Shown piece by piece: positions 15,108-19,529 of a stretch of DNA of 64,000 nucleotides. This DNA comes from Bifidobacterium choladohabitans. GTDB lineage: Bacteria > Actinomycetota > Actinomycetes > Actinomycetales > Bifidobacteriaceae. Each line of letters starts with the position of its first letter. Positions within the stretch are counted from its first letter, which is position 1. A program made the position numbers and the translations under genes. The notes beneath the pieces were generated by a model. It had not been told where the DNA came from and searched no databases. It worked only from the letters and a program-made list of their open reading frames with translations. The stretch is taken from the NCBI RefSeq assembly GCF_016102005.1, contig NZ_JACFPL010000001.1, positions 1-64,000 on the forward strand, in the 5' to 3' direction.

Positions 15108-15137
15108 TTGACACTGCCCCCGGTGCCCATCTATGTT
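15108..15137 (+). promoter_or_regulatory. Promoter of the M-box ABC transporter operon
   Basis: TTGACA (15108-15113), 18 bp, then TATGTT (15132-15137): a near-consensus housekeeping promoter. Transcription would begin near 15144, just before the first M-box helix. Confidence 0.7.
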
Positions 15138-15146
15138 ATTGGGTGG

Positions 15147-15275
15147 TCGGTAGGTGAAGCTACCGCATGGACAAGGCATGCTGCCGCAAAGTGGTGGAGA
15201 CACCCCGCGCAGGTCAACAGTCCCCGTCGGATCAAGGCAGGGACTAATGCAGGGCCAAATACCATGCGAAGCCGA
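15147..15275 (+). promoter_or_regulatory. M-box (ykoK) Mg2+ riboswitch
   Basis: Conserved M-box segments appear in order: AGGTGAAGCT (15152), GCTGCCGC (15179), GGAGACACC (15196), AGGTCAACAG (15211), a CGGATCAAGGCA-like stretch (15228) and CTAATGCAG (15244). A 7-bp helix joins CGCATGG (15164-15170) with CCATGCG (15262-15268), and TCGGT (15147-15151) can close the domain with GCCGA (15271-15275). The match to B. subtilis mgtE (ykoK) leader landmarks is from memory. It precedes the ABC permease gene by about 95 nt. Confidence 0.85.
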
Positions 15276-15293
15276 AGCTTGAACGATGACAAT

Positions 15294-15312
15294 GATCGGC
15301 GCATGGCCGATC
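15294..15312 (+). promoter_or_regulatory. Expression-platform hairpin of the M-box leader
   Basis: GATCGGC (15294-15300), loop GCATG, GCCGATC (15306-15312): a perfect 7-bp hairpin. Its left arm could instead pair TCGGC (15296-15300) with GCCGA (15271-15275), the closing strand of the M-box. This gives two exclusive folds. No T-tract follows, so control may be Rho-dependent or act on translation. Confidence 0.55.
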
Positions 15313-15370
15313 GCCACGCCGTCTTCGAGGCTGCCGACAGGGATGTTCCGCACCTTGGAGGGAGGCCATC

Positions 15371-17134
15371 GTGAATACTGTCGCACTGCCAGGAATGCTC
15401 CGTTCTCCACTGAACGACGACCGCAGCCAGGCATCGCGCTCCACCCGTATATGGACGGGCCTGGCCGTAGCCATAGGCGCTCTGGTCCTGCTGGGGGCCC
15501 TGGCCTATCTGCTGCCGGCCCTGGGCGCGCCCATCGGCCCGGCCGGCGTACCCTCGCATGTCTCCACCGACCCGGCCAACTTGCCCTACTATGCGCTGCG
15601 CTCCCTCTTCCGCATGTTCACGGCCCTGATCATCTCCCTGGTCTTCGCCTTCCTCTACGGACTGGCCGCCGCACGCTCCCGTCGCCTTGGCTCCGTGCTC
15701 ATCCCCCTGCTGGACATCCTGCAGTCGGTGCCCGTCCTGGGCTTTCTGTCGGCCACCATCTCCATCTGGCTGGTCCTCTTCCCCGGGTCCATCATGGGCG
15801 TGGAGGCGGCCTCCATCTTCGCCATCTTCACCAGCCAGGCCTGGAACATGGCCTTCTCCTTCTACAACTCCCTGACCAGCGAGCCCGCCGACCTGGACGA
15901 GGCGGTGAGGCTGATGCGCCTGACCCGCTGGCAGCGCTTCTGGAAGCTGGACGTGCCCAACTCCATGATCCCCCTGCTCTGGAACTGCATGATGAGCATG
16001 GGCGGCGGCTGGTTCTTCCTGACCGCCTCCGAGATGATCTCGGTCAACAACAGGACCCTGGCCCTGCCCGGCATCGGCTCCTTCGTGGAGGAGGCCACCG
16101 CCGAACAGGACCTGGGCAAGGTGGGGCTGGCCATCCTGACCATGATCGTGGTGGTCCTCTTGATTGACTTCCTGCTCTGGAAGCCGCTGACCGCCTGGGC
16201 CGAGAAGTTCCGCTACACCAGCAGCCAGTCCACCGAGCCCCGGCGCAGCCTGGTGCTGACGGTCATCCGTCTGTCCGGGGTCAAGGACCTCTTGGGCCTG
16301 GTGGGCCATCCCCTGTCCGACCTGCTGGACCGGATCACCCGCCCCCTGGGCCGCACAGGGGCACGCTGGAGCCGTGGCGGCGGACACAGGCGGGCCAGCG
16401 ACCTGGTCTGGTGGGCCTGCCTGGCCCTGATCGGCCTGTGGGGACTCTGGCAGCTGGACCGCCTGGTCATCCGCCCGCTGGGCCTGGGCGAGGTCGGCCA
16501 CGTCTTCCAGCTGGGTTTGCTGACCTTCCTGCGGGTGCTGATCCTGATGGTGGTCTGCACCATCGTCTGGGTGCCCATCGGCGCCCTGATCGGCATGAAC
16601 CCGCGCATCTCCCGCTACCTGCAGCCCCTGGTGCAGATCCTGGCCTCCTTCCCGGCCAACTTCATCTTCCCCTTCGTCACCATGGTCTTCATCATCTGGC
16701 GAATCGACATCAACTGGGGCAGCATCCTGCTCATGGCCCTGGGCACCCAGTGGTACATCCTCTTCAACGTCATCGCCGGGGCCTCGGCCATCCCCGACGA
16801 CCTATTGGAGATGTCGCGCAGCCTGGGCCAGAACCGCTGGCAACGATGGAAGACCCTGATTCTGCCGGCCCTGTTCGGCTCCTGGTGCACCGGCGGCATC
16901 ACAGCGGCCGGCGGGGCCTGGAACGCCTCCATCGTCTCCGAGGTGGTCTCCTACGGGAAGACCGAACTGACGGCCCGGGGCCTGGGTGCCTACATCGCCC
17001 AGGTGACCGCAACCGGCGACACCCCCCGCATCATCCTGGGGGTGGCCGTCATGAGCATCTTCGTGGTCCTGGCCGACCGGTTCTTCTGGTCTCCCCTGCA
17101 ATCACTGGCACAACGGCGCTATTCCCTGACATGA
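15371..17134 (+). CDS. ABC transporter permease, two fused permease domains
   Basis: A 587-residue inner-membrane protein with two BPD_transp_1 permease domains in one chain (about residues 80-275 and 375-580), plus helices near 25-50 and 345-365. Each domain has an EAA loop contacting the ATPase: DLDEAVRLMRLTRWQRFWKL in the first and DLLEMSRSLGQNRWQRWKTL in the second. The nearest families are annotated nitrate/sulfonate/bicarbonate-type permeases, but no substrate-binding protein is encoded nearby. The M-box leader instead suggests a divalent-metal-linked role. The start is GTG at 15371 with GGAGGGAGG upstream. It overlaps a possible ATPase start by ATGA. Confidence 0.9.
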   Translation: MNTVALPGMLRSPLNDDRSQASRSTRIWTGLAVAIGALVLLGALAYLLPALGAPIGPAGVPSHVSTDPANLPYYALRSLFRMFTALIISLVFAFLYGLAAARSRRLGSVLIPLLDILQSVPVLGFLSATISIWLVLFPGSIMGVEAASIFAIFTSQAWNMAFSFYNSLTSEPADLDEAVRLMRLTRWQRFWKLDVPNSMIPLLWNCMMSMGGGWFFLTASEMISVNNRTLALPGIGSFVEEATAEQDLGKVGLAILTMIVVVLLIDFLLWKPLTAWAEKFRYTSSQSTEPRRSLVLTVIRLSGVKDLLGLVGHPLSDLLDRITRPLGRTGARWSRGGGHRRASDLVWWACLALIGLWGLWQLDRLVIRPLGLGEVGHVFQLGLLTFLRVLILMVVCTIVWVPIGALIGMNPRISRYLQPLVQILASFPANFIFPFVTMVFIIWRIDINWGSILLMALGTQWYILFNVIAGASAIPDDLLEMSRSLGQNRWQRWKTLILPALFGSWCTGGITAAGGAWNASIVSEVVSYGKTELTARGLGAYIAQVTATGDTPRIILGVAVMSIFVVLADRFFWSPLQSLAQRRYSLT

Positions 17135-17154
17135 GAAGTCTGAGAGGTTCGACA

Positions 17155-18507
17155 ATGACCAAGATCAATTCCAACGGGATCATCACGGCCGAGCACGTGA
17201 CCAAGACCTACCAGTCCGACAAGGGCGCGGAGCTGACCGTTCTGGACAACATCGACTTCACCCTGCACGAGGGCGAGGTGGTGGCCATCCTGGGCCGCTC
17301 GGGCGCCGGCAAGTCCACCCTGCTGCGCATCCTGGCCGGCCTGGTCCCGGCCAGCGAGGGCAGCGTCGAATACCGGGGCAAGCAGCTGGACGGGCCCAAC
17401 CCCGGCGTGGCCCTGGTCTTCCAGAGCTTCGCCCTGATGCCCTGGCTGACCGTCAAGGACAACGTGGAACTGGGCCTGCAGGCCCGGGGCGTGCCCAAAA
17501 AGGAGCGCGAAAAACTCTCCCTTGCCGCCATCGACGCCATCGGCCTTGACGGTTTCGAGAGCGCCTACCCCAAGGAGCTCTCCGGGGGCATGCGCCAGCG
17601 CGTGGGCATCGCCCGGGCCCTGGTCCTCAAGCCGGACGCCCTCTTCATGGATGAGCCCTTCTCGGCTCTGGACGTGCTGACCGCCGAGAATCTCCGCCAG
17701 GAGGTCCTCAAGGTCTGGTCCGAGGAGGCAGGCAGCGTCAAGTCGGTTCTGATCGTCACCCACAACATCGAAGAGGCCGTGGAGATGGCCGACCGGGTCC
17801 TGGTCCTGGACTCGCATCCCGGCCGGGTCATCGCCAACGTGCCCATCAACCTGGACAGGCCTCGGGACAAGCAGTCCGACCTCTTCCAGTCCTGCGTGGA
17901 CTACCTCTACTCCATCCTGACCGGCCAGCGCGACAGCGAGGACATCCGCCGCCGTCTGCAGACCAAGGTGCGCAACCGTCAGGCCGTGCGGGACTCGGTG
18001 CGGGACGAGGACACCGCCGAGCGCAACCTGCCCGACGCCACCCCCGGCGGCCTGGCCGGTCTGGCCGATGTCATGGTCAACCAGCCCAACGGCATGGACC
18101 TGGCCGACCTGGCCGCCAAGCTCTCCTTCGAGGTGGACGACCTCTTCCCCCTGATCGACGCCGGGCTCATGCTGGGCATCTTCCAGGCGGACAACGGGCA
18201 TGTCAGGCTGACCGACCAGGGCCGGGCCTGGCATGATGCCGACATCCTGGAGAGCAAGGAGATGTTCTCAAAGATGCTGATGGACCACGTCCCGCTGATC
18301 CGCATCATCGACCGGGCCCTGAAGAACAGCGACGACAAGAGCCTGCATGGCTCCCTGATCCTGGACCTGCTGCGGGCCCACCACTCGGACAAGGAGGCCG
18401 TCCAGCAGTTCGACACCGCCATCACCTGGGGCCGCTACGGCGAGCTTTTCGATTACGACGCCGACGACGATCGGCTGACCCTGGACCCCGAGAATCACAC
18501 CGAGTGA
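17155..18507 (+). CDS. ABC transporter ATPase with AAA-associated C-terminal domain
   Basis: A 450-residue nucleotide-binding subunit partnered with the fused permease. Walker A GRSGAGKST lies near residue 47, the Q-loop in ALVFQSFALMPW, the signature LSGGMRQR near 142, Walker B ALFMDEPFSALD and the switch His in IVTHNIEEAVEM. Beyond about residue 260 is a long C-terminal extension, with winged-helix-like segments such as LADLAAKLSFEVDDLFPLID, matching the AAA-associated C-terminal domain found with this transporter class. That extension may sense substrate. The ATG at 17155 has GAGAGG upstream; an ATG at 17131 overlapping the permease stop is an alternative. Confidence 0.9.
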   Translation: MTKINSNGIITAEHVTKTYQSDKGAELTVLDNIDFTLHEGEVVAILGRSGAGKSTLLRILAGLVPASEGSVEYRGKQLDGPNPGVALVFQSFALMPWLTVKDNVELGLQARGVPKKEREKLSLAAIDAIGLDGFESAYPKELSGGMRQRVGIARALVLKPDALFMDEPFSALDVLTAENLRQEVLKVWSEEAGSVKSVLIVTHNIEEAVEMADRVLVLDSHPGRVIANVPINLDRPRDKQSDLFQSCVDYLYSILTGQRDSEDIRRRLQTKVRNRQAVRDSVRDEDTAERNLPDATPGGLAGLADVMVNQPNGMDLADLAAKLSFEVDDLFPLIDAGLMLGIFQADNGHVRLTDQGRAWHDADILESKEMFSKMLMDHVPLIRIIDRALKNSDDKSLHGSLILDLLRAHHSDKEAVQQFDTAITWGRYGELFDYDADDDRLTLDPENHTE

Positions 18508-18549: not shown

Positions 18550-18555
18550 TAGAAT
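18550..18555 (+). promoter_or_regulatory. -10 element of the crcB operon
   Basis: TAGAAT lies seven bases before the first helix of the fluoride riboswitch, exactly where the transcript should begin. No good -35 is seen about 17 bp upstream. Confidence 0.55.
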
Positions 18556-18562
18556 GAGCCTC

Positions 18563-18622
18563 GGGCGATGGAACCCGCCCGGGGCTTGAGCCCCGAACCG
18601 CAAACTGCTGATAGTTCCTGCA
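18563..18622 (+). promoter_or_regulatory. Fluoride (crcB) riboswitch
   Basis: GGGCGATGG opens the motif. GGGCG (18563-18567) pairs with CGCCC (18576-18580), a GGGGC/GCCCC hairpin follows, then AACCGC and GCTGATAGTTCCTG. The pseudoknot GGAAC (18570-18574) with GTTCC (18614-18618) is intact. Order and sequence match the crcB motif, and two crcB genes follow. Confidence 0.88.
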
Positions 18623-18714
18623 CCATGATTCGACGACCCGTCTGTGGGCCGGGTGCAGGCACATGCCATCCAGCCCGACACGCAGATGCTGATCCGTCGG
18701 GAACCGAGCCTCCA

Positions 18715-19152
18715 ATGACCAAACCTCCTACCGGACCTGACATGGCCACAGCCCTGGTGGTGATGCTGGGTGGAACCCTGGGCACCGGCTGCCGGTACGC
18801 CTTGAGCCTGCTGCCGGGCCAGAGCGGCCCACTGCATCCGGGAACCCTCCTGGCCAACCTGATCGCCTGCGCAGGCTACGCCCTGCTGACCGCTTTCCTG
18901 GCCGGGCTGCCAAAAAGCGCACATCCGCACCGAAGGCAACTGACCAACAAGGGTCTGGGCATGGGCCTGTGCGGAGGACTGTCAACCATGTCCACCCTTT
19001 CGCTGGAACTGGTCCAAGGCCTGTCAGGCGGTCAACTCCAAGCAACCCTTGCCTACCTGCTGGTCTCCTTCGCCGGAGGCCTCTTGGTCTCCTGGGCCAT
19101 GGCAACGCTGGGAGCGCGTCTTGCCGCACGCATCCAGGCGGGTGCGCGATGA
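18715..19152 (+). CDS. crcB: Fluoride channel CrcB/Fluc, first subunit
   Basis: A small fluoride-export channel subunit of about 145 residues with four transmembrane helices. Fluc landmarks are GGTLGTGCRYALS, the LLANLIACAGY helix with its channel asparagine, and GLCGGLSTMSTLSLE containing the track Ser/Thr residues. The start is uncertain: ATG at 18715 or 18742, neither with a strong ribosome binding site. Longer upstream frames run into the riboswitch and are rejected. It overlaps the second crcB by ATGA. Paired non-identical CrcB proteins in Gram-positives form heterodimers, and I infer that here. Confidence 0.88.
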   Translation: MTKPPTGPDMATALVVMLGGTLGTGCRYALSLLPGQSGPLHPGTLLANLIACAGYALLTAFLAGLPKSAHPHRRQLTNKGLGMGLCGGLSTMSTLSLELVQGLSGGQLQATLAYLLVSFAGGLLVSWAMATLGARLAARIQAGAR

Positions 19153-19529
19153 CCATTACGTTTACGTTGCTGATTTGCCTGTGCGGCGGCCTGGGTGCCG
19201 CACTGCGCTACCTGCTGGACACACTGGTCAAGGCCCGCTGGCAGGTGGACCTGCCCCTGTCGACCATGCTCATCAACCTGCTGGCCGGATTCGCCGCAGG
19301 ACTGGTGGCCGCCCTTGCCACCTTCCACGGACTGCCCGCCTGGGGACGGCTGCTGCTGGCCACAGGACTGCTGGGCGGCTTCTCCACCTTCTCGACAGCG
19401 GTCAACGAAGTGTTGGCCCTGACCCGGCAGAGACGGCACCTGGCGGCTCTGGGCTATCTGGCAGCTTCAATCTTTCTGCCGCCACTGCTGACTGCCCTTG
19501 GTTTCATGCTGGCCGGACCGGGCATGTAG
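19149..19529 (+). CDS. crcB: Fluoride channel CrcB/Fluc, second subunit
   Basis: A 126-residue four-helix CrcB protein. Visible motifs are GGLGAALRYLLDTLV, STMLINLLAGFAAG with the conserved asparagine, and GLLGGFSTFSTAVNE. It begins at ATG 19149, four bases into the end of the first subunit gene, so the two are translationally coupled and controlled by the same fluoride riboswitch. Length is typical of Fluc. The convergent BASS gene ends 33 bp away. Confidence 0.92.
   Translation: MTITFTLLICLCGGLGAALRYLLDTLVKARWQVDLPLSTMLINLLAGFAAGLVAALATFHGLPAWGRLLLATGLLGGFSTFSTAVNEVLALTRQRRHLAALGYLAASIFLPPLLTALGFMLAGPGM

Follow-up and report, generated by a model that had tools for sequence, protein, structure and literature searches.

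The window analysed here, the first 64,000 nucleotides (nt) of contig NZ_JACFPL010000001.1 of Bifidobacterium choladohabitans (assembly GCF_016102005.1), carries a ykoK-type (M-box) Mg2+ riboswitch aptamer in front of an operon encoding a fused-permease ATP-binding cassette (ABC) transporter of a kind usually labelled nitrate/sulfonate-type. This arrangement is confirmed. It is very likely that the operon belongs to Mg2+ homeostasis, and the transporter itself probably imports Mg2+, as an ABC-type system induced at low Mg2+ and lacking a dedicated binding protein, since it stands under M-box control, its relatives are often found beside Mg2+ genes and it appears to stand in for them in Gardnerella. 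We also lean towards a broader proposal drawn from these comparisons, in which ABC transporters with fused transmembrane domains (TMDs), a PF09821-tailed ATPase and no dedicated binding protein would form a further class of Mg2+ importer, M-box-induced at low Mg2+ in Bifidobacterium, part of Gardnerella, Nocardia, Tsukamurella, a Chloroflexota metagenome-assembled genome (MAG) and a Desulfobacterota species, and would be the only recognisable Mg2+ uptake system of Gardnerella.

The aptamer occupies positions 15139–15297 of the forward strand and scored 95.3 bits (E 8.9e-20) in an Rfam covariance scan, far above the gathering score of 44 for RF00380, with the model aligned over its full length (1–169 of 169). 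A chance match was rejected on this score. A first-pass annotation had already recognised an M-box in this leader, with coordinates that fall within 8 bases of ours, and had described a long-range helix; the outer helix is indeed part of the RF00380 alignment. A genome search returned this M-box as the sole RF00380 match. It is directly preceded by a predicted sigma-70-like promoter (TTGACA-18 nt-TATGTT, 15108–15137, forward strand), which agrees with the consensus at 10 of 12 positions; the consensus scan found one such site as compared to 0.1 expected in shuffled sequences. The aptamer ends 73 nt before the GTG start of the permease gene on the same strand.

The permease (15371–17134, forward strand, 587 residues) is COG4986-like, with two fused TMD units recognised by Pfam as two BPD_transp_1 stretches within one chain. 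The ATPase (17155–18507, forward strand, 450 residues) exceeds the Pfam cut-offs for both ABC_tran (113.7 bits) and the C-terminal AAA_assoc_C domain (PF09821, residues 318–435, 121.4 bits against a cut-off of 27.6). Both marks of the two-TMD COG4986/PF09821 type are therefore present, namely two BPD_transp_1 units per chain and an AAA_assoc_C tail, in agreement with the first-pass description of the proteins. That description also held that a binding protein is missing, and none was recognised beside the operon when the open reading frames between 9 and 25 kb were inspected by eye and seven proteins were scanned with profiles. The permease matched PF00528 only, and no match was obtained to the Pfam families of CorA, MgtE, P-type ATPases or Nramp. 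Sequence searches detected no solved relative of the PF09821 tail, and inspection by eye of the conserved acidic residues of the permease revealed no clear cation path. The permease is 99% identical to that of B. apousia and 98% identical to that of B. mizhiense, both of which come from bee guts.

A canonical nitrate, taurine or sulfonate transporter was rejected because the curated NCBIfam cut-offs are not reached. The permease scored 74.5 against 209.05 for TIGR01183 (NtrB) and 54.2 against 342 for TauC, and the ATPase scored 193.9 against 291.8 for TIGR01184 and 214.7 against 357 for the taurine ATPase PRK11248.

We then considered 189 genomes of the window's family, 68 of which encode the permease at E 1e-84 or better; 50 further genomes (118 in total) match it only weakly, as other ABC permeases would. 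Counted among the 68 are G026 and G042, where the gene is in two pieces, and G112, where only a fragment was found. M-boxes were detected in 41 of the 189 genomes, all of them among the 68. In 40 of the 41 the M-box shares the strand of the permease gene and is situated 73–780 nt upstream of it, and in the remaining one (G112) it abuts the permease fragment. In the single-contig genome G024, the M-box is followed on one strand by the permease, ATPase, MgtA and MgtC genes.

Other Mg2+ importers were sought in the family genomes as well. MgtE was found in none of the 189 genomes by a search that was positive in 9 of 14 controls. CorA is present in 154 genomes and absent from 35, the absence in 15 genomes being deduced from the tally. 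With MgtA sought up to E 1e-100, the 35 CorA-less genomes divide into 18 with MgtA (including a fragment below the cut-off in G168 and a gene with two internal stops in G013), 13 with the fused permease and four with neither, all four less than 80% complete. When only CorA-less genomes with completeness of 90% or more and contamination no higher than 5% are counted, 19 are left: 11 with the permease (all Gardnerella) and eight with MgtA, and none has both or neither. The 13 CorA-less permease genomes comprise 12 Gardnerella and G110, an uncultured Bifidobacterium MAG that is 82% complete. The twelve Gardnerella permeases are 86.8–100% identical to four named Gardnerella records, four of them being identical to one record. 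No CorA, MgtE, MgtA or Nramp was found in these twelve genomes, all of which keep the fused-permease transporter; an M-box is present in six of them.

Beyond the family, we examined 80 named loci, a sample that leans towards the actinobacterial branch because the best 80 of 559 listed relatives were taken. M-boxes were searched across whole genomes for 49 of the loci; for the remaining 31, L093 included, the scan covered the locus. Besides Bifidobacterium and Gardnerella, same-strand M-boxes upstream of the permease gene were found in five Nocardia and three Tsukamurella loci, in an Anaerolineae MAG (gap of 198 nt) and in Citrifermentans bremense (gap of 551 nt); an M-box also precedes the permease in L064, a genome of the same class. 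In Streptomyces orinoci the operon is flanked by two M-boxes, one of them before an Nramp gene; this genome (G493, locus L086) holds eight M-boxes, five of which fall within about 17 kb of one contig. Overall, 38 M-boxes were found in 19 of the 49 genomes, and 12 of them lie within 1.2 kb upstream of the permease gene, whereas about 0.004 such placements would be expected by chance, on a rough estimate for the named genomes. Given these 12 and the 40 of 41 M-boxes in the family, chance placement was rejected. Three alignments (A1, 16 rows; A2, 52 rows; A3, 43 rows) and a permease tree of 82 rows were built, and in this quick tree the M-box-bearing rows fall into separate supported groups.

Mg2+-related neighbours were sought in the 80 loci by tblastn using four Mg2+-related proteins and, in counts that ignore the relatedness of the loci, were found in 24 (MgtC in 14, MgtA in 7, Nramp in 6 and CorA in 2). 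Either such a neighbour or an upstream M-box was present in 31 of the 80 loci, and in 28 of the 42 assigned to Actinomycetota by name. Four MgtC examples were confirmed by PF02308 and all four MgtA neighbours tested exceed the TIGR01524 cut-off; the CorA neighbour of L111 lies above its cut-off and that of L127 below (186 against 200.75). The Nramp neighbours match PF01566 and reach no NCBIfam cut-off, and may for this reason be NrmT-like; the match in L151 is weak (33% identity). MgtC stands immediately before the permease in Nocardia and Tsukamurella and after the ATPase in Crossiella and Streptomyces lincolnensis, and MgtA precedes the permease in Amycolatopsis and others, while in L138 and L083 the Mg2+-related neighbours lie on the opposite strand. 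Checks of 40 of the 42 neighbour clusters, each made on a single representative or on the gene of the window itself, revealed no family of nitrate, sulfonate or taurine assimilation (c29 and c33 were left unscanned, and five representatives had no Pfam match). The homologues are thus not consistently found beside anion genes, and the survey of metal riboswitches proposed in the first-pass annotation did reveal a recurrent pairing. Its prediction that this transporter class moves, or is needed with, Mg2+ or Mn2+ is supported for the actinobacterial branch and a few outliers, albeit not demonstrably for the class as a whole.

Candidate regulators were also noted around the operon. Seven loci (L128, L129, L131, L136, L139, L144 and L152) have a response-regulator-type gene (c6) close to the permease, joined in five of them by a histidine kinase (c3); in Pseudomonas gingeri (L152) this pair is divergent from the permease. 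Such a response regulator could control the permease where the M-box is absent. Near the operon in L083, L084, L088, L100, L130 and L138 there is a small regulator (c8), ArsR-like in the one member that was scanned, and MgtA accompanies it in three of the six.

Several observations weigh against the transporter being a Mg2+ importer, or limit how widely this would apply. The M-box was not matched in 27 of the 68 permease genomes of the family (G049 and G095–G107 among them), six of which are Gardnerella, and a lax search (E up to 1) of eight M-box-less loci detected no degenerate copy. Outside Actinomycetota, just 3 of 38 loci have a Mg2+-related neighbour or an M-box, one of them being a weak Nramp match. 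In G024 the MgtA and MgtC frames were matched in part only and may be shifted. CorA is kept in 55 of the 68 permease genomes, including that of the window, so that the transporter is not a general replacement for CorA. Gardnerella being one related group, its pattern amounts to about one evolutionary event; in addition, the CorA-less permease genomes contain a PF03600 carrier, which raises the alternative of a citrate-type Mg2+ carrier in Gardnerella, although the one protein examined has no NCBIfam match. It would be unusual for an ABC importer to lack a binding protein, and a distant binding protein is possible given that NMT1-type binding proteins (PF09084) are encoded elsewhere in the window genome, the main one being followed by its own permease gene as judged by eye. 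NMT1-type proteins are likewise present in the CorA-less permease genomes: by eye, the single-contig Gardnerella genome G118 has one between ATPase and permease genes, another next to a permease gene and another next to a ykoE-like gene.

Three other explanations were weighed. The transporter could be part of a Mg2+-starvation response and move something else that is needed at low Mg2+, either an anion (bicarbonate or phosphate, for example) or a counter-ion. Proteins other than plain Mg2+ transporters do occur in Mg2+-regulated operons, for instance MgtC, the commonest neighbour found here, whose function is described as "elusive" in the relevant part of PMC12810186. The solved structures nearest to the permease are CmpB (bicarbonate) and NrtB (nitrate), and the ATPase is homologous to NrtD and CmpD. 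Two kinds of gene outside the operon could be read the same way: two Nocardia loci have a PALP/rhodanese (sulfur-type) gene upstream of their M-box, and three Tsukamurella loci have acyl-CoA carboxylase genes, whose products use bicarbonate, upstream on the other strand. With no curated nitrate, taurine or sulfonate model reaching its cut-off, no assimilation family for these anions in the 40 clusters checked, and Gardnerella keeping the transporter where no other importer sought was detected, we consider a different cargo unlikely.

Import of manganese, or of mixed divalent ions, through an M-box that senses Mn2+ in this lineage appears still less probable and would surprise us. M-box RNAs are described as binding Mn2+ in crystals, one mycobacterial M-box class is reported in PMC12810186 with genes annotated as manganese transporters, and the search for Nramp in the 13 CorA-less permease genomes gave a fragment in G110 and nothing in the other 12. 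The window genome has its own Nramp, though, and we favour Mg2+ over Mn2+ as the ion that would be transported, because the neighbours include curated Mg2+ families (MgtC, CorA and the Mg2+-translocating P-type ATPase) and because all 13 CorA-less permease genomes encode ZnuA/MntA-type binding proteins for Mn or Zn. Finally, the M-box could have become linked to an ordinary anion transporter by an accident specific to the lineage, which would accommodate the homology-based annotation, the 27 family homologues without an M-box and the 35 of 38 loci outside Actinomycetota that have neither Mg2+ neighbour nor M-box. This explanation is strongly disfavoured, to the point of being very nearly discounted, by the recurrence of the pairing in three phyla with differing gene orders and by the placements counted above.

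If the transporter is indeed a Mg2+ importer, the operon would work as a Mg2+-limitation module. Genes preceded by M-boxes are switched off at high Mg2+ in the account given by PMC4072509, and the transporter would thus be made at low Mg2+, as fits an importer. At high cellular Mg2+ the aptamer would fold and lower expression, most likely through masking of the Shine-Dalgarno sequence and perhaps through Rho, as no intrinsic terminator was found in the window leader by terminator scans; as Mg2+ falls, permease and ATPase would be produced. The TMD halves of the single chain would then assemble with two copies of the ATPase into an ABC importer that brings in Mg2+ at the expense of ATP hydrolysis, both the ion and the inward direction being inferred. 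The ATPase tail may be regulatory; for its Liberibacter counterpart, a winged helix was predicted by HHsearch, according to PMC3688454.

The probable expression platform (15298–15370, forward strand) was delineated by folding, alignment with relatives and terminator scans. A hairpin (15294–15312) is predicted, followed by a stem (15318–15366) that partly overlaps the Shine-Dalgarno sequence GGAGGGAGG (15357–15365). The folding scores are modest (z of -1.4 in the window, -3.1 and -0.9 in two relatives). The 73-nt region between aptamer and start is similar among the relatives aligned, while the leaders of some other relatives are longer (271–780 nt). Weak hairpin-plus-T candidates were seen in 6 of 21 other leaders, in a scan that covered the M-box loci apart from L014, L024–L030 and 11 M-boxes without a locus. 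The translational M-box upstream of pe20 in Mycobacterium tuberculosis, which acts with Rho-dependent termination in the description of PMC12810186, makes a translational platform plausible here by analogy.

A second riboswitch follows the operon. A fluoride riboswitch (RF01734, 36.4 bits against a cut-off of 34) occupies 18555–18627 on the forward strand, starting 48 nt past the ATPase stop codon, and precedes two crcB genes (18716–19529, forward strand, starts judged by eye). Mg2+ and fluoride riboswitches hence stand in tandem in the window; an RF01734 riboswitch was also found in L097.

The operon is a machine of known kind, an ABC transporter under a known riboswitch, whose function has probably gone unrecognised. 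Should it import Mg2+, the nitrate/sulfonate label assigned by homology would need correcting, and the supply of an essential ion in Gardnerella, where no CorA, MgtE, MgtA or Nramp was found, would be explained. One would then also have to ask how Mg2+ is selected by an ABC transporter that has no dedicated binding protein.

By sequence, the nearest solved permeases and ATPases are those of NrtBCD and CmpBCD. These differ in that their permeases are separate chains, each about 280 residues long, and their ATPases are of two kinds. Those systems also have dedicated binding proteins. The riboswitch is ordinary in matching RF00380 at full length and lying 5' of a transporter operon; its target is an ABC transporter, whereas published M-box targets are, in the wording of PMC4072509, "almost always" corA, mgtE or mgtA, plus nrmT, and the mycobacterial targets listed in PMC12810186 include pe/ppe-mgtC operons among others. 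The closest precedent is in B. breve UCC2003, where PMC5746004 places a ykoK/M-box element in the 5' untranslated region of Bbr_0406-0407, an ABC transporter with a COG4986 permease, and suggests, in a table row and one sentence, a role in bacterial metal ion homeostasis. By this published description the B. breve genes resemble those of the window in both M-box and COG4986 ABC permease; the paper's treatment of them contains no survey and no link to MgtA, MgtC, CorA or Gardnerella. The Bbr locus tags are absent from the main text of the B. breve essentiality paper.

A similar protein architecture, with fused TMDs, a PF09821 tail and no binding protein, is described in PMC3688454 for CLIBASIA_02415/02420 of "Ca. 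Liberibacter asiaticus", an "Nrt/Ssu/Tau-like" two-TMD ABC system presented as possibly novel and of unknown substrate. That system is alphaproteobacterial and, within the description given there, is not linked to Mg2+. The duplicated permease of L. crescens has a row in a table of PMC4837290, in the section headed "Essential gene set and Las gene expression profile". The consulted passages of PMC9495176 and PMC4974804 make no mention of a fused-permease PF09821 system.

The relevant sections of PMC4072509, PMC12810186 and PMC9276622 name CorA, MgtE, MgtA/B and NrmT as the importers of Mg2+ in bacteria, one list adding CorB/C, and the main text of the Mg2+ transporter review PMC9276622 contains no word beginning with "ABC". 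No prior claim of an ABC-type Mg2+ importer was found in the open-access literature searched, most subscription papers lying outside this scope; in some printed uses the phrase is a label for MgtA or MgtB. The most instructive parallel is the Nramp-related NrmT, which was found through an M-box before a presumed transporter of another metal and then shown to transport Mg2+, as recounted in PMC4072509. NrmT belongs to another protein family, uses another energy source and has been demonstrated experimentally, whereas the window system is known from its sequence; in both cases the same M-box logic pointed to a function in Mg2+ transport.

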